Shown here in pieces: positions 88-50,550 of a DNA stretch of 53,245 nt. The notes beneath the pieces were generated by a model that had not been told where the DNA came from, did no database searches, and worked only from the letters and a program-made list of their open reading frames with translations. A program made the position numbers and the translations under genes. Origin of the DNA: a virus; the IMG/VR virus record IMGVR_UViG_3300042905_005752, positions 1 to 53,245 of that record. The stretch is one strand, 5' to 3'. How positions within the stretch are numbered: position 1 is the stretch's first letter; each line of letters starts with the position of its first letter.

Positions 88-147
88 TTTGGTTTGTGGT
101 TGGCTTGTGGTTGGCTTGTGGTTGGCTTGTGGTTGGCTGGTTAATAC
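88..147 (-). repeat. Tandem 11-bp A/C-rich repeat forming a 5' leader
   Basis: About four copies of AAGCCAACCAC on the minus strand run directly into ACAAACCAAAATG, the start of the gene at 1-87. The tract contains almost no G, so it should be unstructured as RNA. There is no Shine-Dalgarno sequence. It is the clearest example of the A/C leaders seen before many genes in this window. Confidence 0.8.
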
Positions 148-3818: not shown

Positions 3819-3824
3819 TAGTAT
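3819..3824 (-). promoter_or_regulatory. -10 box of the RNA ligase promoter
   Basis: On the minus strand TATACT is followed by ACAACCATGG. A weak TTACCC lies 17 bp upstream and a CGGTAAACCG hairpin precedes it. The expected start of transcription falls on or next to the initiator codon, so the mRNA would be nearly leaderless. Confidence 0.45.
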
Positions 3825-3863
3825 AGGTGGTTTTTACTGGCAGGGTAAGGCGGTTTACCGAAC

Positions 3864-4437: not shown

Positions 4438-4650
4438 TTAGTCTTGTGGCTGTTTTGCCATGTTCAGTTGTGCAATATGAAGAAGTTTTTCCTTCCTTGC
4501 TTTTTGCTTTAGGTAGATAACAAAAGAAATATTCATTTTGCCACCTTCACATTTTTTGCAAGGGCGATGAGTTTGGTTATACCAATCTGCGTACTCTTGT
4601 TTTGCAACATCGGTATCATAAGCGACACCGCGATAGACTGCTTTAGACAT
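4438..4650 (-). CDS. DUF4278-like small protein
   Basis: 70 residues beginning MSKAVYRGVAYDTD, the YRGxxYD pattern of the cyanobacterial DUF4278 family, which supports a cyanobacterial host. A CKKCEGG pair of cysteines follows and then a basic C-terminal half. A GAGG sequence about 8 nt before the ATG could serve as a ribosome binding site, unlike most genes here. Confidence 0.6.
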   Translation of the reverse strand: MSKAVYRGVAYDTDVAKQEYADWYNQTHRPCKKCEGGKMNISFVIYLKQKARKEKLLHIAQLNMAKQPQD

Positions 4651-4830
4651 TTTTTTCCTCTATGGTGAAATCATGAGTCCCGTTCCTTCGGAAGGCGATT
4701 GCGTTTCTCGTCGTCCTACTTGCGTCCACTGTGTGTTAATAGCGGATGAACGATGGTAGTTTAGGTCTCTGATATCTTGTATAGCTTATAATACCCATCT
4801 ATTTAGAAATCAGGTTCACTCAATACCCCG
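4651..4830. other. Intergenic stretch without a clear gene
   Basis: 180 bp between two minus-strand genes. It holds stops in all relevant frames, a possible CATGAT -10 box close to the downstream gene and a CCTTCCGAAGG palindrome. Nothing else is supported. Confidence 0.4.
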
Positions 4831-5869: not shown

Positions 5870-5898
5870 ATCATACTGTGTCTGCGTGGCAGAAACAA
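5870..5898 (-). promoter_or_regulatory. Promoter TTGTTT-17-TATGAT
   Basis: The -35 box is at 5893-5898 and the -10 box at 5870-5875 on the minus strand, followed by an A/C leader of about 25 nt and the gene at 5540-5839. A GC-rich hairpin precedes it at 5920-5935. Confidence 0.7.
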
Positions 5899-6881: not shown

Positions 6882-6914
6882 GGGTAGAAAACCGCCCTGT
6901 AAAAGTCACGGGAA

Positions 6915-6952
6915 CTACCGGTAAACTACTGGTAAACTACTGGTAAACTACC
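6915..6952. repeat. Three direct 11-bp repeats upstream of a promoter
   Basis: Plus-strand GGTAAACTACT occurs three times in succession (the last copy with one change), between the end of the upstream frame and the promoter at 6854-6881. The position upstream of a promoter suggests an operator or activator site; this is inference. Confidence 0.6.
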
Positions 6953-7510: not shown

Positions 7511-7541
7511 TGGTTTGTGCGTTGTGGTGTTTACGAAATGA

Positions 7542-7570
7542 TTATACCGCTTTTGCCTCTCACAAACAAG
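7542..7570 (-). promoter_or_regulatory. Promoter TTGTTT-17-TATAAT
   Basis: The -35 box is at 7565-7570 and a consensus -10 box at 7542-7547. Directly upstream is a hairpin (CTAAACC/GGTTTAG, 7575-7592) and the conserved ATAACCGAACC sequence that contains the stop region of the preceding gene. Confidence 0.75.
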
Positions 7571-9895: not shown

Positions 9896-10124
9896 ATAAG
9901 TCCCAGAGATTTTCCCGAAGGGTACGTTCGAAATCAGGGTCAAGGTTCTTTGATTTTTCAAGTAAGTCGTGGTGGATATTCCTTAGTTCCTCAATCACTT
10001 TACTATCCAACCTCCGGCTAGTTTCATGGCCTGAGACCCGTCCCAGGGCTACCAATTCACACTCATTCAGTAAATCATCTTCGCTAAGAAAATCATCAAA
10101 GCTGCTACCCACATGGCAAATCAT
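9885..10124 (-). CDS. Hypothetical protein (79 aa)
   Basis: Starts MICHVGSSFDDFLSEDDLL at an ATG overlapping the stop of the ASCH-like gene. GGAGGG lies at Shine-Dalgarno distance within that gene. Acidic, mostly helical. Function unknown. Confidence 0.6.
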   Translation of the reverse strand: MICHVGSSFDDFLSEDDLLNECELVALGRVSGHETSRRLDSKVIEELRNIHHDLLEKSKNLDPDFERTLRENLWDLYDS

Positions 10125-10933
10125 GGCTGCACCCTCCGAAACCCGATAACCCACACCCAAGGGTTCGCTTCCCATGACCCTTCACCATTTATGGATTCCC
10201 AGAGCCTGGCGTAGACGCTGGCAAGGCAGTCGCCGGACAACATGCTATCAGTCGAGCAACCCTCAGCCAAAGCATCCGCATCGCTAATTGCATTCAGTCG
10301 CTCCACCCGAATATCAGTAACCTCCAACAAGATGCGGCTGGCCCAGCGGGGCATAAAGATAGATTGGCGAAGTTTAATCCCTTCGGATATTCTGTCGGTT
10401 GATGGGTACAAGACTTTGGTTGGTGCGTGGCCAGGACCCTTCGGCAAGTCCTTGCAAATAGCCGATGGTGCAAGTTTGTCATAAATGTTACTAACTGCCC
10501 AGGTTTCGCGAACCCATAGCATGTCCCCAGGTTGCTTCCACTGCATGTTTTCTGGTGTTATGTCAGAATCAGGCCCGATAGATTCAGGGTCGTCGCACTC
10601 TGTGAAACCCCACGTAAAGTAATGAGGGTTTACCCACACTGCTCGGTTATCTCCGCCAATAGATTCGTTAAGAAGCCCGCGCACGTAATACATGCCATCC
10701 TTCGGAGGTAATCCGGTGTTCCAGTCGCGGTCACCTGGTTTGCCGTAGGGGTTGTGCGCAACTTGATTCACCCATTCGGCATCATCATCTGCAGGCACCT
10801 CAATCATGCGCCCGCCGCAAACACGCATTTTGGCCACACGCCGCGTTTGAGTTTTGCTGCCGTCCAAAATGGCGCGAACCATTTCACCCTTAAACAAGAT
10901 GGGCCTTTCTTTTGTTGGGATTGGGGTTGTCAT
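10121..10933 (-). CDS. ASCH-domain-like protein
   Basis: 270 residues. The N-terminal ILFKGEMVRAILDGSKTQTR and the later GDMLWVRETW are hallmarks of a phage-common ASCH-like family, a PUA-related RNA-binding fold. The ending WANPWVWVIGF-type block is also typical. Its role is unknown; ASCH proteins are proposed to bind RNA or modified bases. The leader contains four AACC repeats directly before the ATG. Confidence 0.75.
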   Translation of the reverse strand: MTTPIPTKERPILFKGEMVRAILDGSKTQTRRVAKMRVCGGRMIEVPADDDAEWVNQVAHNPYGKPGDRDWNTGLPPKDGMYYVRGLLNESIGGDNRAVWVNPHYFTWGFTECDDPESIGPDSDITPENMQWKQPGDMLWVRETWAVSNIYDKLAPSAICKDLPKGPGHAPTKVLYPSTDRISEGIKLRQSIFMPRWASRILLEVTDIRVERLNAISDADALAEGCSTDSMLSGDCLASVYARLWESINGEGSWEANPWVWVIGFRRVQP

Positions 10934-10958
10934 GGTTGGTTGGTTGGTTGCATCGTGC

Positions 10959-11399
10959 CTAGGGGGTAATCATAGCATTTTTTGCTAATGGGTGCCCATG
11001 GGGGGGTAGGGTTTGGTATGCCTTTAAAGTGGTTTCCACCCACAGTCTATTCCATAAATCGATTGGGATGTCTAACCGCAAATTGTACGCATCTTCACCC
11101 ATTTCTACAACAGTGAAACTAAAGCTATTGTTGGTTGTCAGCTCGGCCTCTTGTGATATCCGACGTATACTTCTGATAGAAACATAATCTGTCTGCTCAA
11201 AACCATTATAGTTTTCCTTTATATACTTCTTTATTTTATCCATGTAAATAATACTTCGGTATTTTAATGAGTCCAGGAATAGATATCCCCCGATGGCATC
11301 CCGTCTACTTCTCAATCGGGTGCCAAGTTTATGGGGCCATGGGGACATTCGGACCTGAGGACGCCTAGTATAATGTACCAAATAGAGTGGTTCCGGCAT
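10959..11399 (-). CDS. Hypothetical protein (up to 146 aa)
   Basis: The C-terminal 95 residues from MDKIKKYIKENYNG (ATG at 11241-11243) look like a normal alpha/beta protein. The N-terminal part is Arg/Pro-rich and spans a TATACT -10-like box, so the true start may be 11348 or 11243. Function unknown. Confidence 0.5.
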   Translation of the reverse strand: MPEPLYLVHYTRRPQVRMSPWPHKLGTRLRSRRDAIGGYLFLDSLKYRSIIYMDKIKKYIKENYNGFEQTDYVSIRSIRRISQEAELTTNNSFSFTVVEMGEDAYNLRLDIPIDLWNRLWVETTLKAYQTLPPHGHPLAKNAMITP

Positions 11400-12272: not shown

Positions 12273-12527
12273 CTATACAACAGGGTCCTTAACTTCCCCA
12301 ATGTCAAGGTCCACCAATCGTGTAAAATCATTGGCTTCCATTTGGGTAAATGGATTGAACCGAATTTCCCTACGGTTACCAGCCTCATCAATGCTAAAAT
12401 GCCTGTAGTATTCAACAGAGTCCTCATACTCAACATCAAACTGATACCCAAACATTGAGCCATTGCGCCCAGTAATTACGAATTTGCAATTTGCGTAACG
12501 AAAGTTGAATGCGTCTGGGATTTCCAT
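12273..12527 (-). CDS. Hypothetical protein (84 aa)
   Basis: Starts MEIPDAFNFRYANCKFVITG, preceded by a striking leader of repeated CCAACCA units (12528-12568). A longer reading through that leader is only translated repeat. Beta-rich. Function unknown. Confidence 0.65.
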   Translation of the reverse strand: MEIPDAFNFRYANCKFVITGRNGSMFGYQFDVEYEDSVEYYRHFSIDEAGNRREIRFNPFTQMEANDFTRLVDLDIGEVKDPVV

Positions 12528-12568
12528 TTGGTTGGTTGTTGGTGGTTGGTGGTTGGTGGTTGGTAGGT
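12528..12568 (-). repeat. CCAAC repeat leader
   Basis: On the minus strand about six CCAACCA/CCAACAA units precede the ATG of 12273-12527. It contains no G over most of its length and no Shine-Dalgarno sequence. Confidence 0.75.
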
Positions 12569-14463: not shown

Positions 14464-14528
14464 TGTTTGTTAGGGGTTTGGTTGCGTTTGGTTGCGTTTA
14501 ACGGTAGTTGCGTCCGGGTTAATAAGGC

Positions 14529-15449: not shown

Positions 15450-15519
15450 TTTGTTAGTGGGTTTTGGTTTGTGGATTTGGTTTGTGGGGTTGGTATCTAT
15501 GGTTAAAGGTCTGAAAGTT

Positions 15520-15801: not shown

Positions 15802-15829
15802 ACTATAGCGTTTTGCCCTGCAGAAACAA
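15802..15829 (-). promoter_or_regulatory. Promoter TTGTTT-16-TATAGT heading the NAD+ operon
   Basis: The -35 box is at 15824-15829 and the -10 box at 15802-15807. A hairpin with the ATAACCGAACC core lies just upstream, as in other cassettes. It probably drives 15520-15756, the Prs-like gene and the Nampt-like gene. Confidence 0.7.
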
Positions 15830-19849: not shown

Positions 19850-20239
19850 CTAGTCAGATAAACCAAAAAGTTCTTTAAAAAACTCAACTTCACCTGAGAA
19901 TTCAACTGGTACAGTAGCTAAATTAGAAAAAATTGCTGCTGCTAAGCGGTGATTCCCGTCAGTGAGTATCCAATCCATAGAGTAACCCATAGAGGGGATT
20001 CCTACGTCTAAGGAAATTGGATCCTCAAACCCATTCACAATGAAATAGGCTATTCTTGCTGCGTGGTCATTGGCAGTTGGTTTTCTACCGTTGGCTTTAA
20101 GACTACTGATGGGAATCTCTAGCAAATTCCCGCAATTGATGGCCTTTTGTACCTTGGACTTTGGGACCTTAACACCCCAAGGATGGTATAGGTATGGGTC
20201 GCAAAGTTCTTTAAGCTTACTCACCGGGACATGGATCAT
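19850..20239 (-). CDS. ParB/sulfiredoxin-like nuclease-fold protein
   Basis: 129 residues. WILTDGNHRLAAAIF is the GxHRxxA motif of the ParB N-terminal fold, and IPISSLKANGRKPT resembles its first strand. Small phage members of this fold include nucleases and CTP-binding switches. No helix-turn-helix is visible, so a chromosome-segregation role is unlikely. Confidence 0.7.
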   Translation of the reverse strand: MIHVPVSKLKELCDPYLYHPWGVKVPKSKVQKAINCGNLLEIPISSLKANGRKPTANDHAARIAYFIVNGFEDPISLDVGIPSMGYSMDWILTDGNHRLAAAIFSNLATVPVEFSGEVEFFKELFGLSD

Positions 20240-20262
20240 GTGTTTCTGAATACAAATGGCAT

Positions 20263-20970
20263 TTACTTAAGGGGCTTCCCACGGAAAGAAATCTTAGCAT
20301 CAAACCCCCTCTGTGTCAACCGGTCCTTGTCTGAAATGTCTACTGGTGGCAAACTGTCGGGGTTATCTCTGAGGGATGTCAAAAACATAGCAATCTCCTG
20401 GTACATTTGTTCAGCAGTGAACAAGGATGCAAACCCTAGTTCCCCCAAGTTTGGTACCGTTCGATTTAGTGTCACATGAAATGGTTCCCTAAGGTGCTTG
20501 TAGTGGGGGTCTTCTAGAGTGAAAACAGGAATTTGTAACTTTTTGGATACTTCAACGCAGGCTGAGTTTGGAACTCCAATTAGGTCTTTGATGTCTGGCT
20601 CTTTGAACCATACTCCAGGGGATCTGCTGTAGACTAGGGCCAAGGATGGGTGAGCCTCGGTAATTAGTTTATATTTGGGGAGATACACTCCAGGTTCTTC
20701 AGTCACCAATAGATACAACTTACCGCATACCGAGCACCATTTGTATAACCAGGGAAATGGGTCCGGTTTTCTGCCCCGGTATCCGTCGGCTTTTGGTAAC
20801 GGTTTAGCTGGTATCCCTCCTTTCACCCCAATGGAAAAATAACCACAACTGTATTCGTCCTTACTCTCTAAATCTCTACGAACATAAGTGTTAGCCGGAT
20901 CCCCACCTTCTTGGCTATACAGGTATTCTACATAGTCGTAGTAATCTTTGAACTTTGATAGGATTTTCAT
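20263..20970 (-). CDS. Hypothetical phage-type protein (235 aa)
   Basis: Begins MKILSKFKDYYDYVEYLYSQEGGDP and ends RLTQRGFDAKISFRGKP, two blocks I associate with a widespread phage orphan family. A CSVCGK sequence near residue 80 may be part of a metal site. Function unknown. Confidence 0.7.
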   Translation of the reverse strand: MKILSKFKDYYDYVEYLYSQEGGDPANTYVRRDLESKDEYSCGYFSIGVKGGIPAKPLPKADGYRGRKPDPFPWLYKWCSVCGKLYLLVTEEPGVYLPKYKLITEAHPSLALVYSRSPGVWFKEPDIKDLIGVPNSACVEVSKKLQIPVFTLEDPHYKHLREPFHVTLNRTVPNLGELGFASLFTAEQMYQEIAMFLTSLRDNPDSLPPVDISDKDRLTQRGFDAKISFRGKPLK

Positions 20971-21037
20971 TGTTTTTGGGGTGAAAGGTGAATGAGTTTT
21001 ACTTATTCCGTAAATCAGAACAATTTTCTATGGAACC

Positions 21038-21292
21038 TTAAGGGTTTGCAAAATCCTCCGTATGAATGGCCAGTATAGCAAACTTGTCCAAGGTGTCGTA
21101 GGTCTGGCTAACCCATTGCATCCCAGATTGTTCAAACCACCAATCGGAGGGTAATTCACAAAGATCAGCACTAATGCCAAACTCTGTGACCAACCAGCTT
21201 TCCCTATCGTAAGCCCATGGAACATTTGAAAGCTCTGCTTTTCTGGCAATGTAAGTTCGACCGTCAGGCCCCTCAAGAAGTAGGTGCGTCAC
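21038..21292 (-). CDS. Hypothetical protein (84 aa), GTG start
   Basis: Starts GTG ACG CAC (MTHLLLEGPDGRTYIARKA) seven bases after the stop of the upstream gene. Alpha/beta, rich in Trp. Function unknown. Confidence 0.6.
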   Translation of the reverse strand: MTHLLLEGPDGRTYIARKAELSNVPWAYDRESWLVTEFGISADLCELPSDWWFEQSGMQWVSQTYDTLDKFAILAIHTEDFANP

Positions 21293-21298
21293 TTTTAT

Positions 21299-21652
21299 TC
21301 AGTCCCAGCCCCCATCCAAACGTCTGCTAACCCCACGCGCAGTTTCAGCAGCGTCTTCAATTTGGTTTCTTAAACTGATTATAATGTTGGCAATGTTCGT
21401 GTAGATTATTCCATCGTTATAACTAAGGTCAAAACCGCAATTGTATTCATCATTCTCTTCAACTCCTGAACCGTTAAAAATTTCCCTAAGAACCTTGTGG
21501 GTATTCCACTTATCCCGGAACTTGTAGTAATCTTCTCCCTTTTGGAAATCACTCCAAGCTAGACCACTGTAGTCTGGGGGACCGCACTCTGATAGGATTT
21601 TCTTAAGTTTTTTCTTACCGGTAGCAGTCAATAATTTAGGGTCGATTTCCAT
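21299..21652 (-). CDS. Hypothetical protein (117 aa)
   Basis: Starts MEIDPKLLTATGKKKLKKIL. NDEYNCGFDLSYNDGI recalls DEYSCGYFSIGVKGGI in the protein at 20263-20970, so the two may share a domain. A strong UUCG hairpin lies just upstream. Function unknown. Confidence 0.65.
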   Translation of the reverse strand: MEIDPKLLTATGKKKLKKILSECGPPDYSGLAWSDFQKGEDYYKFRDKWNTHKVLREIFNGSGVEENDEYNCGFDLSYNDGIIYTNIANIIISLRNQIEDAAETARGVSRRLDGGWD

Positions 21653-21687
21653 TTTTCTATTAGTGTTTGGGGCAGCAAGGGGACCGA

Positions 21688-21706
21688 AGCCCCCCGCAAT
21701 GAGTCA
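21688..21706 (-). terminator. UUCG tetraloop hairpin
   Basis: On the minus strand GGGGGC TTCG GTCCCC forms a stable stem with a UUCG loop between the tRNA-like region and the gene at 21299-21652. There is no T run, so it may be an RNA-processing or stability element rather than a terminator. Confidence 0.5.
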
Positions 21707-21844
21707 GAATGCTATAGCTCAAACGGCTACGGCAGTCCTCTCGAATTTGACGATTTTGTTAGCGTCTATGTTGTGCTTATGCAAGCGGCTTTCGGTAATT
21801 GGCTTGCTGTCGGTCGATTCCAGAGCGGACCCTCGAAAGGGAAA

Positions 21845-21916
21845 TGGATCCGGGGCGATTCGAACGCCCGTGTCGCGCAGTAGTGACAACTACCTACACC
21901 CAGTTTTGAGCCGTAT
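21845..21916 (-). tRNA. Degenerate tRNA-Asp-like sequence
   Basis: On the minus strand the T arm is perfect (GGGCG TTCGAAT CGCCC), followed by CGGATCCA as a 3' end, and TTGTCAC gives a GUC (Asp) anticodon in a short stem. The matching 5' acceptor and a normal D arm are not visible. It is a tRNA pseudogene, a tRNA-like RNA or a badly diverged tRNA. Confidence 0.4.
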
Positions 21917-21948
21917 GGTAGGGCTTTAACAATTATTACCCGTTACAG

Positions 21949-22182
21949 TTAAGAGTCTATGGTAATCTTATACTGCCTAACTAAGTTAAACAACTCAGTT
22001 TGAAGGTCTTCGAAGCCGCCCACAAGTTGATCCTGAGTGACCGCATAGCAAGGGCCCACTTTAGAGCCCGCCCAAGGTATGACTTGTTTGTGCTCTAGAA
22101 TCTTGTTCCTGTACTTAAGAAGTAGGGAGTTAATCCCGGAGGCGAGCTGAACTTTATCGGATAGATCTACTTGTTTTAACAT
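21949..22182 (-). CDS. Hypothetical protein (77 aa)
   Basis: Helical protein starting MLKQVDLSDKVQLASGINSL. The leader before it contains CCGTTACCAACA twice, and further upstream two strong hairpins follow the promoter at 22322-22349. Function unknown. Confidence 0.65.
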   Translation of the reverse strand: MLKQVDLSDKVQLASGINSLLLKYRNKILEHKQVIPWAGSKVGPCYAVTQDQLVGGFEDLQTELFNLVRQYKITIDS

Positions 22183-22321
22183 GGTTGGTAACGGTGTTGG
22201 TAACGGTGGATTGATAACAAAAGGTGATGTTACCGGATGGGCTGGGTCCGGGCATAGCCTGCGGCGCCCGTCCCTGGTCGGGGGCTAACGCCCCCTCCCG
22301 AAATTTTCGGGCCATACCCCT
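22183..22321 (-). promoter_or_regulatory. Leader with two strong hairpins (possible attenuator)
   Basis: After the promoter the RNA would form CCCGAAA-A-TTTCGGG and then GGGGGC-GTTA-GCCCCC, followed by a G/C-rich stretch and an A/C repeat leader. A 53-codon frame starting 6 bp after the -10 box crosses both hairpins. The layout suggests regulated read-through, but no ligand or partner is evident. Confidence 0.5.
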
Positions 22322-22349
22322 ATTGTAGCGCGTTTACTAGGGGAGGCAA
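22322..22349 (-). promoter_or_regulatory. Promoter TTGCCT-16-TACAAT
   Basis: The -35 box is at 22344-22349 and the -10 box at 22322-22327, just beyond the helicase gene. Confidence 0.6.
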
Positions 22350-22419
22350 GGCGGCTAACCCCCCACAACCCAGCAAGCTGCCTGGAGTCCACCCATTTAA
22401 CATATATGGCTAGGCAGGT

Positions 22420-23988
22420 TCACCCTTGCGGGACCATCCGCCGCCTATTTCGAGTCGATGGAACTTCGATATAAGTCAAATGCTCTTTGGCTCTTGTCAC
22501 CTGGACATAACATAAGTTGTTTTCTTGAATAATTTCCCAATCTTTTCTCGCCCACTTACTTGGGCTATAAGCATTCATACCTAGCGCATAAACGTGATCC
22601 CATTCTTTACCTTTAGAGCGATGCACTGTGGATAGGGTCAAAATGGACTGGCCCTTTGACGAATCACTATCTCCAAACAACCCTTTAATTTTATCGATCA
22701 ATACACTGATTGGATCATCCAATTTACACTGTTCCATCAAAACCCTTAAGGTTTCTGCTTGGTCTTCAATATCATCACATTTTGTATAATCTTCGTCATC
22801 CCTAGCCTTAGCCATGGCTTTTATGTACCAGTTGGCTACTTTGGACTCTAGTTCGGACACCTCTTCACAATCCCAACGGTTTATTAACTTAATTAGACCA
22901 TCTCCAATAGCCCGACCCTCTACCCTGCATGAAATACCCTTCTTGATAAGCTTAAAAGCCAACTCAACCAAGGGCTTCGTTACTCTGCACAAGATGGCAT
23001 CGCTCGGGTTAAGGTTGGGATTCTTCAGTAGATCTTCCAACTTTAGGGAATCTACAATGCCGTCGGGCGCACCATCAAATGCTTTAATGTGGGGCACCCA
23101 CCTTTGGGCCTCCTTGACAATGAGCTTTGGACAACGGAAAGTTGTTGTCAGCGGGAGATTGATGGTGTTGAATTCTTTAGCAATCAAATCCATTGCATTG
23201 TGGTCAGCACCAGTATACGCATTGATCGACTGATGGCTATCCCCAACAGCAATTAGACGTCCATTAGGGGCAAGCATCATCTTAATGAGTTTGCGCCTTA
23301 CAGGGTTAGTATCCTGGGCTTCATCTAGGAGGACCCAGTCATATTGCTTAGATTTTAACCCCAAAAGAACCGGTCCATATACCATGTCATCGAAGTCAAT
23401 TATTTTCGGGATAGCCCTATTACTTTCTTTTAGGACAGCACGAGCTTCTTTGATTCCGTCACTTAGTGATGCAAACTTAGGGAGAGCCAAATCCAGGGAA
23501 AAGTGATCAACCATGTGGTTCCAAGCCTGGGTATCATCAATGTTTGAAAAAATACCTATCCCGATTTGTTTGGCTTTTGATGCAGCATTTATGGCAAACG
23601 TGCGTAGATAAGGGTTTTTAACGACAGAGTCTGCAATTTTTTTGAGTTTTTTGTACCCGTCTAGCTCTACCCTTGGGTAAGCAGAACGTAAAATTTTATA
23701 CCCGAAACTATGAACGGTGCCAATATTGAGTCGATCCCCGATTTGCATTGGGCTAGATCTTACTTCAAGTTCTTTGACAATGGCTTTGTTATAGGCGCAA
23801 AAACCTACATCGCCCTTAGTTCGAGGGAGAACCCCAAGTAAAACCTTAGTTTTTCCTGACCCTGCCACAGCTTCAACAAGTGCAGATCCTTCACCTTTGA
23901 CGGCCCATTCTGCTACTGCATACTGCTCAGGGGATGGGGTTGGCCCTTTGGTTGCGGTTGAATCGTCAGTAGGCTGGAGTATTAGCAT
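22420..23988 (-). CDS. UvrD/Rep-like superfamily 1 helicase
   Basis: 522 residues. Motifs in order: Q-motif region PSPEQYAVAEWA, Walker A AVAGSGKTKV, motif Ia GTVHSFGY, Walker B LLDEAQDTNP, motif III GDSHQSINAYTGAD, motif IV TTFRCP, motif V STVHRSKGKEWDHV and motif VI CYVQVTRAKEHL. It is an ATP-driven 3'-5' helicase, shorter than UvrD because the accessory domains are reduced. It probably acts in phage replication or recombination. The leader contains repeated AACCGC units. Confidence 0.92.
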   Translation of the reverse strand: MLILQPTDDSTATKGPTPSPEQYAVAEWAVKGEGSALVEAVAGSGKTKVLLGVLPRTKGDVGFCAYNKAIVKELEVRSSPMQIGDRLNIGTVHSFGYKILRSAYPRVELDGYKKLKKIADSVVKNPYLRTFAINAASKAKQIGIGIFSNIDDTQAWNHMVDHFSLDLALPKFASLSDGIKEARAVLKESNRAIPKIIDFDDMVYGPVLLGLKSKQYDWVLLDEAQDTNPVRRKLIKMMLAPNGRLIAVGDSHQSINAYTGADHNAMDLIAKEFNTINLPLTTTFRCPKLIVKEAQRWVPHIKAFDGAPDGIVDSLKLEDLLKNPNLNPSDAILCRVTKPLVELAFKLIKKGISCRVEGRAIGDGLIKLINRWDCEEVSELESKVANWYIKAMAKARDDEDYTKCDDIEDQAETLRVLMEQCKLDDPISVLIDKIKGLFGDSDSSKGQSILTLSTVHRSKGKEWDHVYALGMNAYSPSKWARKDWEIIQENNLCYVQVTRAKEHLTYIEVPSTRNRRRMVPQG

Positions 23989-24059
23989 CTTGGTTGCGGT
24001 TTGGTTGCGGTTTAGTAGTTGGTTGGTAATTGGTTTATAGCTGGGTGTGTCAAATTAAC

Positions 24060-26731: not shown

Positions 26732-26958
26732 TCATTGGGTCCATTCCCTCAAGTCAACAATTTCATACCAAGCGCATTCCAGGACCCCCTTTTTTTTTCT
26801 CCGCGTTTAACATTATAGTGATCAAATTGGCTGGCACTTGAGACCACAAACTCTACTTGCTCTTTAGCTTCTTCGTATGTTGAGAAACAACCAATCCAGT
26901 CTCCAGTATCACCTGACGGGTAATAGTCTCCAGCAATTAACAAGTATGGCTTATTCAT
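26732..26958 (-). CDS. Hypothetical protein with probable -1 frameshift
   Basis: The frame from MNKPYLLIAGDYYPSGDTG runs in zero frame to a TGA at 26749 with a poor C-terminus. At 26790-26798 a run of nine A follows GAG. Reading one base back there gives a better end, LECAWYEIVDLREWTQ, stopping at 26732. The site fits the heptamer A AAA AAA in the correct phase. Either programmed or transcriptional slippage or a one-base sequencing error would explain it. A helix with EEAKEQVEFV precedes the site. Function unknown. Confidence 0.6.
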
Positions 26959-27170
26959 AGTGACACCAAATCTTCAGGGCTACAAGATTGGGATGTGGTC
27001 CCAGCCCAGCCCAGCCTCGATACTGCTTTGTCAAACTTTACAAATACGTTTTTGCCATTGTTAGATGATACGGTGCCATGTTCAACGTCCGGGTGGTTGA
27101 TTTCCCCGTGGGCGTGCCCCGGAATATAAGCCACTTTGACTCCGGGTGTTGCAAGTTTGATGTCAATCAT
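26955..27170 (-). CDS. Hypothetical protein (71 aa)
   Basis: PGVKVAYIPGHAHGEINHPD is followed by GTVSSNNGKNVFVKF, an SH3-like small beta fold common among phage orphans. It overlaps the frameshift gene by ATGA. The His-rich segment could bind metal. Function unknown. Confidence 0.7.
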   Translation of the reverse strand: MIDIKLATPGVKVAYIPGHAHGEINHPDVEHGTVSSNNGKNVFVKFDKAVSRLGWAGTTSQSCSPEDLVSL

Positions 27171-27435
27171 TGGTTTTGGTGTTATTTAATTTGATTTCTA
27201 ATGATAGGACTCTTAGGGTAATTTCCTCGGTCTTGAGCGCCATTTCCTCGGCTCTGAGAGCCATGCGTTCAGCTTTGTAAGCCATTTCCTCAGCCTTGAG
27301 CGCCATCTCTTCAGCCTTGAAAGCCATTTCCTCAGCTTTGAGCAACACTTCTTCGGCATTAAGAGCCGGGGTACGTTTGTTTATGGGCGGCAATGGTTGC
27401 CTCATCCACAATGGCAGATATGCTGGGCTCCACAT
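27163..27435 (-). CDS. Heptad-repeat coiled-coil protein
   Basis: 90 residues. After about 23 N-terminal residues come seven copies of a heptad of the type KAEEMAL (residues 26-74), encoded by 21-bp tandem DNA repeats at 27228-27361, then a helical end. It should form a long amphipathic helix, charged on one face and Met/Ala/Leu on the other, so it may oligomerise. Start at 27435, or at 27405 (MRQPLPP). Function unknown. Confidence 0.7.
   Translation of the reverse strand: MWSPAYLPLWMRQPLPPINKRTPALNAEEVLLKAEEMAFKAEEMALKAEEMAYKAERMALRAEEMALKTEEITLRVLSLEIKLNNTKTND
27228..27361 (-). repeat. 21-bp tandem coding repeats
   Basis: About seven imperfect 21-bp units inside 27163-27435, in phase with the reading frame; copy number is likely to vary among relatives. 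Confidence 0.7.
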
Positions 27436-34731: not shown

Positions 34732-35285
34732 TGCCCCCTAGTTTCTGGGTTATAATCAGGAAGTGGCATCCAGTGAGTTGGGGGGAAAGGATGTGGCCAC
34801 CTTACGAATTTACCATCTTCGGGCCAAACACAGTACGGGTCTGTTGTATAGCGAGTCCCATTGCCAACTCTAACATCCACGGCAATCACAACAAACATTC
34901 GGTAAGGCTCCCGAACTTTGGGGGCGGTACTAATTGGGAGCCATTCCCCAGCTTCGGCCCCCCTACCATAACTCAACGTTCCCTCAGCAATCATTAATTC
35001 GATATTAGTCCATACGGACTCTTGAAAGGGACACTCAACTACCCAATTACCAAGAGAACTGAGAAGTCCAAAAGGGGCATCTAGCGTTCGCTCAATGAGT
35101 CGCAGCCTGGAACCAACTTGATAGACATAACCAGCCAGAGTCCTGAAAGGCTTTTCAACTACAAGGACATCGCCAGCTTGAGGTAGACATTCGGGGCGAG
35201 GGAACTCGGATGAGCCTCTGCAATAATAATTGGCGTTGTTCACCACCGAAATGGTGTAGGTTGGTTTGGGCATTGGTTTTGGCAT
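34728..35285 (-). CDS. DUF551-like protein (185 aa)
   Basis: From MPKPMPKPTYTISVVNNANY. The C-terminal EWLPISTAPK...HWMPLPDY matches the DUF551 pattern seen with Lar-type phage proteins. The N-terminal part is beta-rich. An ATG at 35315 lies 6 bp after a TATGAT box, so the later start with an A/C leader is preferred. Confidence 0.65.
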   Translation of the reverse strand: MPKPMPKPTYTISVVNNANYYCRGSSEFPRPECLPQAGDVLVVEKPFRTLAGYVYQVGSRLRLIERTLDAPFGLLSSLGNWVVECPFQESVWTNIELMIAEGTLSYGRGAEAGEWLPISTAPKVREPYRMFVVIAVDVRVGNGTRYTTDPYCVWPEDGKFVRWPHPFPPTHWMPLPDYNPETRGQ

Positions 35286-35365
35286 TGGGTTGAACGTTGG
35301 GTTGATGTGTTCCATGGGGCTATCATACCTTGAGCGAGGGGTCAGGTAAAGATCGGTTAACCGCC

Positions 35366-42863: not shown

Positions 42864-43271
42864 TTAATTGGTAGCGATTATCGGGGAGTAACCACTGTTG
42901 TGAATAGTGCCGATGGATCCAATTTGCCCTGACATACCTGTGGGCCCCAGTGAGCTGCCTACTCTAACGATCCGCCATGTGGTTGTACCATCGGGTTGTC
43001 GCTGCTCGATCTGAATGGCTTGATCTGGGTCAAACCCGTGCTTGGCTATGAATGCCTGAAGAACCTCTTCGCGTTGAGATAGGATCGGGTTTACTATGTT
43101 TTGTAAACAGTTATGAAACACTTGTAGTTCCTTATTGTCTGGGCTCTGCCCCGGTACCTCATATGACCCGGCCACGGCGGCGATGACTTCAGCTTGGTCC
43201 GAATTGAGTTCGGTTCCAGTAACGCCCAGGATGTAGCCTTGCAGCCATGTTACGAAGTCAGTTTTGTTCAT
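42864..43271 (-). CDS. FCYWLQG-family protein (135 aa)
   Basis: DFVTWLQGYILGVTGTELNS then DQAEVIAAV matches the family start; a longer Gly/Gln-rich C-terminal part follows. The leader has two CCGGAATACAA repeats ending CAAAATG. Confidence 0.8.
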   Translation of the reverse strand: MNKTDFVTWLQGYILGVTGTELNSDQAEVIAAVAGSYEVPGQSPDNKELQVFHNCLQNIVNPILSQREEVLQAFIAKHGFDPDQAIQIEQRQPDGTTTWRIVRVGSSLGPTGMSGQIGSIGTIHNSGYSPIIATN

Positions 43272-43335
43272 TTTGGTTGTATTCCGGTTGTATTCCGGTT
43301 TCAGTTGAAGAGAATAGAGGGTGACCTCATGGCAG

Positions 43336-46422: not shown

Positions 46423-46708
46423 GGTTGTTTTTATATGGGCGAGGAATGGTAACAAGGTAACTATACTGCTTTTGCTCCGCAGAAACAAGTCGGGGAACCG
46501 AACCGGGTGCGACGGTTAACCGTCTCCCTATATCTGAAAACTTTTTCTTCACTTTGGTCTCACCCTTTGAGAAGTGCTTTAACCATAAACCCAATGTAGG
46601 TTCCCCTAGGTGGAAGTTCCAAGCTGGAGTTTCATCGTTACAGGCTTTGGACTTGGTAAACTTCCAGTCGTGGGCTTTCCCCTCAACGACGGTAAAAAAC
46701 TTTCCCAT
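46412..46708 (-). CDS. Hypothetical protein reading into a promoter cassette
   Basis: MGKFFTVVEGKAHDWKFTKS to about residue 62 looks like protein. The last 36 residues are translation of the hairpin, the promoter and the next gene's leader. The original stop may have been lost, or the gene may be a decayed relative. Confidence 0.5.
   Translation of the reverse strand: MGKFFTVVEGKAHDWKFTKSKACNDETPAWNFHLGEPTLGLWLKHFSKGETKVKKKFSDIGRRLTVAPGSVPRLVSAEQKQYSYLVTIPRPYKNNHGI
46460..46488 (-). promoter_or_regulatory. Promoter TTGTTT-17-TATAGT
   Basis: The -35 box is at 46483-46488 and the -10 box at 46460-46465, preceded by a GACGGTTAACCGTC hairpin; drives the gene at 45691-46422. Confidence 0.7.
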
Positions 46709-48441: not shown

Positions 48442-48858
48442 TCAACCCTTATTAGTCGGAGCAGTCAGGATAGGCAACCCGCCTTGGTTAGGGGCTACGA
48501 AATAGGTTTTGTTTCCCTTTTCTGCCCCTTCCTCAATGTGTTGAATCTGCAGGAACGTCAAATACTCGGGGTTATCCTTAAGGCTGGCACCAATGATTTT
48601 ATTGGATTCTGCGATACCTTCAGCTTCTTTGATGCGAACTTCCTTAAGTTTTTCGGCACTATCGAGTTTAGCTTGAGCCTCCAGAACTGCGACTTGGCGC
48701 GTATATTCGGCCTTTTGCAACTCGGCCTTCCCTTCTAGGGACTGCTGCCAGACTCCGTATTGTGGTAGTACAAACATTGCGGTCGCAATGATGGCCGCCA
48801 AAAGGAATGCCAGGATGCCAAAAATGACGCCGCCTGAGTAACTGTCTGAGTGCTTCAT
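48442..48858 (-). CDS. Membrane-anchored coiled-coil protein (138 aa)
   Basis: Residues 9-32 (GVIFGILAFLLAAIIATAMF) span the membrane. Residues 40-90 form a long charged helix (AKLDSAEKLKEVRIKEAEGI), and the end YFVAPNQGGLPIL resembles the tail of phage band-7-like proteins. It may form a membrane-associated oligomer. Confidence 0.7.
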   Translation of the reverse strand: MKHSDSYSGGVIFGILAFLLAAIIATAMFVLPQYGVWQQSLEGKAELQKAEYTRQVAVLEAQAKLDSAEKLKEVRIKEAEGIAESNKIIGASLKDNPEYLTFLQIQHIEEGAEKGNKTYFVAPNQGGLPILTAPTNKG

Positions 48859-48922
48859 GGTGCGATTGGTTGTTGGTTGTTTGAGGTAGTGATTTGGCCT
48901 AATTGGGGGAACCCGATAGGCA

Positions 48923-49934: not shown

Positions 49935-50135
49935 TCAATCCAAGACAATAAAGACGGAATTTTGTATCACATTGGAGCCAAAATATAAAGAACCTTCCTC
50001 AGTTACACAATAGTAGTACTTAAGATCTTCCAAGTTAGTAGTCAACATTTGTTCGAGTGCTTTCCTTTCGGACTCCGTTAAGGGTTGCTCCACAGAGACA
50101 AAAGTTCCAAGAGGGGTGATTGCCTTGATTTTCAT
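49935..50135 (-). CDS. Hypothetical protein (66 aa)
   Basis: Starts MKIKAITPLGTFVSVEQPLT. Helix LTESERKALEQMLTTNLEDL in the middle. Overlaps the upstream gene as ATGA. Function unknown. Confidence 0.65.
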   Translation of the reverse strand: MKIKAITPLGTFVSVEQPLTESERKALEQMLTTNLEDLKYYYCVTEEGSLYFGSNVIQNSVFIVLD

Positions 50136-50500
50136 GGTTGGGGGATAGAGGCGATGGGTGGGCTGGGGAGAGGGTGCCAGTGGGTGTCTCGGGGGAAGTA
50201 GCCCACTTGAGGCAGTTCAACCCGCATTTCATACCCATCCCACACAAGAATCTCAGTCGGAACTCCAATGCTTCCCTTGCCACCCCTAGGCGCCGTTTCA
50301 ATCGGCTGCCAGGGGTTGCGCTGGTTCCATGCAGCGATAGCTTTATCAATGCTGCCAGTTTCATCATAACTGAAAGCCGGTCCAGCTGCTTCACAGTTGC
50401 CGCATACAACAAAGTTGTAAATGCCATCGTCGTGAAAGCTGACATCAACGCTGCCACAAAACGGGCAGGGTAGGAGGTTAGGGGTGGTGGCGTCAGGCAT
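50132..50500 (-). CDS. Lar-like zinc ribbon fused to a DUF551-like domain
   Basis: 122 residues from MPDATTPNLLPCPFCGSVDV. CPFCG...CGNCEAAGP is the Lar zinc ribbon, followed by AIAAWNQRNPWQPIETAP and HWHPLPSP of DUF551. Lar-type proteins reduce type I restriction in some phages and prophages. The start is set after the -10 box; earlier ATGs at 50515 and 50539 lie in or next to the promoter. Confidence 0.75.
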   Translation of the reverse strand: MPDATTPNLLPCPFCGSVDVSFHDDGIYNFVVCGNCEAAGPAFSYDETGSIDKAIAAWNQRNPWQPIETAPRGGKGSIGVPTEILVWDGYEMRVELPQVGYFPRDTHWHPLPSPPIASIPQP

Positions 50501-50521
50501 GGGTTTGTCTTTCATGGGCCA

Positions 50522-50550
50522 ATCATAGCGTTTCTGCATTGCGGGAACAA
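50522..50550 (-). promoter_or_regulatory. Promoter TTGTTC-17-TATGAT
   Basis: The -35 box is at 50545-50550 and the -10 box at 50522-50527, with an upstream GGTTTACC half-palindrome like the other cassettes. Confidence 0.65.

Follow-up and report, generated by a model that had tools for sequence, protein, structure and literature searches.

The window analyzed here is the whole of a 53,245-base virus record (IMGVR_UViG_3300042905_005752, positions 1-53,245), a fragment in which several genes begin directly after short tandem repeats rich in A and C. The original prediction took such leaders, which lack a Shine-Dalgarno (SD) sequence, to be the standard start signal of a whole phage. The question raised by this locus is whether the start signal lies in the repeats or in the composition of the leaders that carry them, and how widely it is used among the genes of the phage and its relatives.

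Window, relatives and probable host

All 70 gene starts called in the window were on the - strand; they are predictions from a home-made codon-usage gene finder and were not taken from annotation. The genes included those for nicotinamide phosphoribosyltransferase (NAMPT), ribose-phosphate pyrophosphokinase, a UvrD-like helicase, glutathionylspermidine synthase and an RNA ligase, and the RNA elements comprised nine tRNAs, a cyanobacterial-type tmRNA and a glutamine riboswitch, the aptamer of which (4677-4754, - strand) lies upstream of a 70-aa ORF (4438-4650). A megablast search of window positions 1-49999 against phage records revealed no match, and the nearest isolate by helicase was Synechococcus phage B23 (48%). 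Close relatives in IMG/VR included G005 (279 kb), G004 (277 kb), G007 (134 kb) and G010 (130 kb). Because G004 carries a psbA gene, the clade consists of cyanophages, and we regard it as a family whose members are large, infect cyanobacteria and have not been cultured. The phage psbA gene, used as a query over genome contigs, retrieved no relative; the control cyanobacterial loci were fetched with a typical cyanobacterial psbA. The tmRNA is of the permuted type seen in a subset of cyanobacterial genomes, which we take to be the picocyanobacteria, and this type therefore makes the picocyanobacterial lineage probably the likeliest host.

The phage tmRNA (window 21679-21941, - strand; Rfam cyano_tmRNA, 76 bits) carries the tag AN[KN]IVKFER[TI]AVAV. 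A permuted tmRNA with an AVAV-ending tag was also found in G002, G003, G004, G005, G006, G007 and G010 and is conserved in the clade, whereas VAA is the tag ending in 12 genomes with permuted tmRNA (e.g., ANNIVRFSRQTAPVAA); the AVAV end might alter the degradation of tagged proteins. Additionally, the NAMPT gene was interrupted midway in G006 (20765-23206) and G007 (19860-22301), where it forms one 838-aa open frame with matches to query residues 1-324 and 316-500 about 0.9 kb apart, possibly owing to an intein or another insertion.

Composition of the leaders

In the 35 window leaders preceded by at least 30 nt of intergenic sequence, the region from -30 to -1 was rich in A and C and contained little G (A.40, C.33, G.09, T.18); the composition from -60 to -31 of the same leaders was A.30, C.26, G.18 and T.26. 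The result was the same (G.09) for the 20 starts that follow an in-frame stop and have no other candidate start close by. SD-like 4-mers (GGAG, GAGG, AGGA or AAGG in -20..-5) were at the chance level in the 35 leaders (2.9% vs 2.3% in shuffles), and the gap genes of G005 (.09 vs.06 expected) likewise showed no clear excess. Both the scarcity of G and the lack of SD sequences had thus been correctly predicted for genes with a gap of their own. Operon-internal genes showed some SD enrichment (.27-.33 vs.15-.24 expected).

Runs of at least 14 nt made up only of A and C occurred at 4.6 per kb in the window leaders, 0.2 in coding sequence and 0.4 in other intergenic DNA, an approximately 20-fold difference between leaders and genes. 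No G/T counterpart of these runs was present in the window leaders, and the bias is therefore strand- and position-specific. It was also expected that most genes would start as CAAAATG or AACCATG; this holds for the A/C composition, as an A/C tetramer of any kind directly preceded 40 of the 70 starts, but not for the motifs themselves, since CAAA or AACC was found at only 17. G was also low at the second and third positions of the first codons. The frequency of A peaked at -1 (.54), -3 (.49) and -6 (.44), compared with.28-.40 at -4, -5 and -7 to -12, so that the starts have a Kozak-like A-3/A-6 context. No core motif was shared among the leaders beyond an AAC/CAA/ACC composition. ACA was depleted in them (491 occurrences against 598 in shuffles, z -5.4), and therefore the enteric ACA-motif enhancer was rejected as a model.

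The predicted folding energy of the region from -30 to +20 was -2.1 kcal/mol at window starts and -9.1 in coding sequence, in line with the unstructured leaders originally proposed. The corresponding values were -3.8 at G005 starts, -8.4 to -9.2 in coding sequence, -5.0 in cyanobacterial leaders and -4.4 to -12.9 in genomes with permuted tmRNA. The weak predicted folding at the starts would follow largely from base composition. With low G and little predicted structure at the start, these leaders have the properties of unstructured, C/A-rich, SD-independent leaders.

Neutral strand-biased mutation or a gene-calling artefact might create such a pattern, given that the related genomes have a common history and the starts are predicted. 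We consider this highly improbable: coding-strand composition was balanced (C.22-.24, G.23-.26) while the bias sat at -30..-1, the unambiguous starts agreed, and the same gene finder did not produce the bias on other phages and cyanobacteria.

Tandem arrays

All seven arrays of the original prediction were found by TRF and read back on the - strand, the mRNA strand, where each ends at an ATG. They are listed with other features in Table 1. The gene starting at 87 runs off the contig, with 29 codons visible.

Table 1. Array leaders and promoter-like boxes in the window
Position	Strand	Feature	Gene or remark
88..147	-	CCACAAGCCAA x4.5, A/C-rich leader ending ACCAAAATG	gene start at 87
3820..3825	-	-10-like TATACT at exactly -12	RNA ligase gene start (3813); predicted leaderless mRNA
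10934..10950	-	AACC x4 leader	ORF 10121-10933
10969..10974	-	-10-like TATGAT upstream of the AACC array	consensus match alone; the array would then be inside the mRNA
12528..12568	-	CCAACCA-type leader	ORF 12273-12527
14464..14505	-	CGCAACCAAA x2.4 leader	NAMPT gene
15450..15494	-	CCACAAACCAAAT x1.9 leader	ribose-phosphate pyrophosphokinase gene
22183..22215	-	CCGTTACCAACA x2 leader	ORF 21949-22182
23989..24030	-	AAACCGCAACC x2 leader	UvrD-like helicase gene
43272..43300	-	CCGGAATACAA x2 leader	ORF 42864-43271
48859..48890	-	CAACCAA-type leader	ORF 48442-48858

Of 48 window leaders, 6 contained a tandem self-match 12 nt or longer, where dinucleotide shuffles gave an expectation of 0.0, and none of the control windows did (0/53 coding, 0/31 upstream). 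In G005, 7 of 215 leaders had a tandem array. Arrays were therefore present in approximately 3 to 13% of leaders, roughly a tenth at most, and composition is the common feature; the repeats are not the standard start signal that they were first taken for. The array units of different genes were unrelated to one another, and not every array was an A/C leader, an example being GGCTGGGCTGGG before the start at 26958. A further array at 35261-35292 was rejected as a leader, as it lies in an open reading frame and is probably inside coding sequence. Two other repeats were observed in the window: a tandem AACTACCGGTA x3.6 at 6913-6952, which is neither A/C-rich nor start-adjacent, and an array of 21/42/63-base repeats at 27221-27342 within ORF 27163-27435.

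Variation between orthologous leaders

Individual leaders differed among the relatives. The NAMPT leader unit was present in one copy in G001 and in two in the window, G005, G006 and G007, and another A/C leader took its place in G002, G003 and G004. The ribose-phosphate pyrophosphokinase array was missing in G005, G006 and G007. The leader of ORF 48442-48858 had one added 7-nt unit in G005, and that of ORF 12273-12527 differed in sequence among close relatives with its A/C composition kept. In the G005 and G007 orthologs of ORF 42864-43271, the leader was entirely different in sequence and contained little G. In two lineages, the same gene carried different tandem units (G005 175557 vs G004 65040), and one ortholog pair combined 100% identical proteins with unrelated A/C/T leaders.

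We compared 755 ortholog pairs with a shared start from related phage genomes, which are not independent of each other. The 110 pairs with leaders less than 60% identical still had A.37, C.31 and G.12. As fully replaced orthologous leaders keep their composition, it is composition rather than sequence that looks selected, and the data fit a reading in which selection acts on leader composition and the arrays are by-products. Duplicative indels between orthologous leaders numbered 10 in -45..-1 and 1 further upstream, a noisy count that does not prove duplication to be the main process of leader change.

The arrays might instead be functional in themselves, for example as copy-number-tunable standby sites for the ribosome or S1, with array length acting as an expression rheostat. 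They are far above shuffles and concentrated in leaders, and their copy number varies between near-identical phages. We nevertheless consider this explanation unlikely, as so few leaders have an array, the units have nothing in common between genes, orthologous genes are found without an array or with another one, and duplicative indels are few.

Promoters and leaderless genes

In 22 of 26 array leaders, the array lies downstream of the best -10-like box. A consensus match carries little weight as evidence, but this position suggests that the array leaders are probably transcribed. The original prediction would have failed had transcription started downstream of the repeats, and these predicted boxes point the other way. 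Their position also led us to reject the repeats as promoters or operators.

A -10 box at exactly -12 occurred in 11 of 551 non-redundant leaders, so only a small class of genes appears leaderless, and this class excludes A/C-array leaders. Together with the SD enrichment inside operons, such genes further limit any claim of a single standard start.

This region could also have been shaped at the level of transcription or DNA instead of translation, through the initial transcribed sequence, through promoter escape or by operator repeats, and the promoter-like boxes do end roughly at the start of the A/C tract. This explanation is very unlikely in our judgment, because the bias reaches the start codon with its A peaks at -1, -3 and -6, and G remains low into the first codons. 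Cyanobacteria are generally reported to be without Rho, which makes a Rho-site function unlikely.

Other promoter-like elements were observed. A recurrent promoter with an inverted repeat (TTGTTTCTGC-n-GCAGAAACGcTATAgT) was found on the - strand of the window at 5870-5898, 7541-7569, 15802-15829, 46460-46488 and 50522-50550, and a loose search, in which some matches elsewhere are due to chance, gave approximately 30 candidates in G004. It resembles a -35/-10 promoter overlain by an operator; this inverted repeat (TTTCTGC..GCAGAAA) is an element separate from the leader arrays. At several sites an ATG follows the -10 box by 12 nt, and a leaderless mRNA is predicted. The called start (50539) of ORF 50132-50539 (- strand) falls within this promoter, and translation more likely begins at the in-frame ATG at 50515, which lies 12 nt past the first base of the -10 box. 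A GGGTAA(A) box located 30-40 nt before starts was most frequent in the structural-gene region and is a candidate late promoter (examples at about 30-50 nt include starts 4464, 40178 and 45046 in the G005 3337-98201 region), while TATAAT-like boxes were commoner outside that region.

Structural and non-structural genes

The first 100 kb of G005 contain the terminase, portal, tail sheath, baseplate and tail fibre genes. Leaders in this structural region had G.18 and C.25, in contrast to G.12 and C.33 in the rest of the genome (Mann-Whitney p about 2e-4 each), with coding composition nearly equal in the two parts. In G004, a more distant relative with a weaker leader bias (C.28, G.17), C alone differed between the gene classes (p.014) and G did not. 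Among gap genes, the structural genes showed no SD regain clearly above chance. The A/C leader bias is thus not phage-wide but is gene-class dependent in one full-length relative, G005; a 53-kb fragment cannot in any case support a claim about the whole phage. Since structural genes are presumably strongly expressed and their leaders are less biased, the bias cannot be read as a plain sign of high expression.

This dependence on gene class would be expected if the A/C tracts bound a trans-acting regulator that coordinates the non-structural genes, for example an sRNA whose seed is rich in G and U or an RNA-binding protein of phage or host origin. The enteric sRNA GcvB targets C/A-rich leaders (PMC3879156), and G005 encodes a 490-aa member of phrog_850, a phage family annotated as RNA-binding protein. 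The free turnover of the leaders and their want of any common core beyond composition argue against such a regulator, which we regard as quite unlikely.

Comparison with cyanobacteria and other phages

The 468 leaders sampled from 80 cyanobacterial loci had C.20 and G.17, used SD sequences above chance (.19 vs.10 expected) and included 13 with arrays; the composition of the phage leaders therefore differs from that of the sampled cyanobacteria, as the original prediction required. In stretches from six genomes with permuted tmRNA, SD use was at the chance level or close to it, and an A/C run of 14 nt was absent from all 178 leaders. Leader C was.12-.19 in seven other cyanophages, with the exception of the GC-rich Pan1, which is strongly SD-type; S-SSM6a leaders had C.15 and SD.33 vs.12 expected. 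Phages further removed from the clade but carrying related helicase or NAMPT genes did not show the pattern. The absence of SD is common to the probable host lineage, and A richness is common to other cyanophages. Because the probable host lineage is itself SD-poor, the missing SD is not the novelty; it is the C-rich, G-poor, array-bearing leader form that is particular to this phage clade.

Discussion

We favor, with moderate confidence, the explanation that these are short unstructured leaders for SD-independent initiation, with the arrays arising as duplications inside them. Most genes with an upstream gap of their own, chiefly non-structural ones, would be transcribed with a short 5' leader that is almost G-free and T-poor. 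An A/C strand would be unable to pair with itself or with the first codons, leaving the start codon accessible, and the host 30S subunit could then load without SD pairing, aided by A at -1, -3 and -6. Selection would act on composition and leave the exact sequence free; such low-complexity leaders would be lengthened by slippage and by small tandem duplications, which would give rise to the visible arrays and be tolerated because composition is unchanged. We infer that the leaders are transcribed as outlined, that initiation is higher because of them, and that they may be contacted by S1 or by some other ribosomal component that binds mRNA. Searches of seven phage records for S1, S21 and IF3 genes revealed none above the family cut-off, with one sub-threshold S21 match in G004.

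The leaders resemble several known systems without being identical to any. An ACAA-repeat leader was reported to promote SD-free initiation (Tzareva 1994, as cited in PMC3879156), and both this leader and the gltI, yifK and dppA leaders (PMC3879156), which promote initiation, are short and C/A-rich like those described here. However, these enhancers are single enteric or synthetic leaders, mostly beside an SD (PMC3879156), whereas the phage clade uses its leaders widely, without SD and with ACA depleted. Similarly, A-rich SD-free initiation of the Bacteroidetes type combines the absence of SD and low structure with A at -3 and -6, positive determinants measured in Flavobacterium and E. coli that the leader A peaks match (PMC6847099); the phage leaders differ in that C is as marked as A and in their tandem arrays. 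Huge phages with a possible S1 gene rarely have SD (PMC7162821), and they resemble this clade in large genome size, weak SD use and translation-related genes (tRNAs, tmRNA and Tyr-tRNA synthetase), although the seven phage records searched here contained no S1-domain match. The cyanophages S-SSM6a and S-SSM6b also rely on cyanobacterial ribosomes, but they are reported to mimic cyanobacterial SD use (PMC6847405).

Short-unit arrays in intergenic DNA have a counterpart in cyanobacteria as well. The short tandemly repeated repetitive sequences of filamentous cyanobacteria are arrays of this kind; the phage arrays differ in lying directly before start codons, in being strand-specific and A/C-rich, and in having a unit that varies by gene. 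None of the window arrays had a unit dispersed at many loci.

The leaders are a striking variant of a known idea and not a new mechanism. A bolder proposal, which we offer only tentatively and think rather doubtful, is that leaders made only of A and C and independent of SD have become the settled format for the non-structural genes of the clade, differing both from its structural-gene leaders and from those of the SD-poor host. Composition alone would then favor initiation on phage mRNAs, and tandem duplication would be a fast means of lengthening the leaders.

The A/C leaders might serve as short, compact expression parts for cyanobacteria. SD-independent initiation on mRNAs is debated in cyanobacteria, and one comparative study holds that cyanophages copy host SD use. 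A clade that lacks SD and shapes leader composition is a natural experiment on this question, with hundreds of leaders, many of which have been replaced between close relatives.
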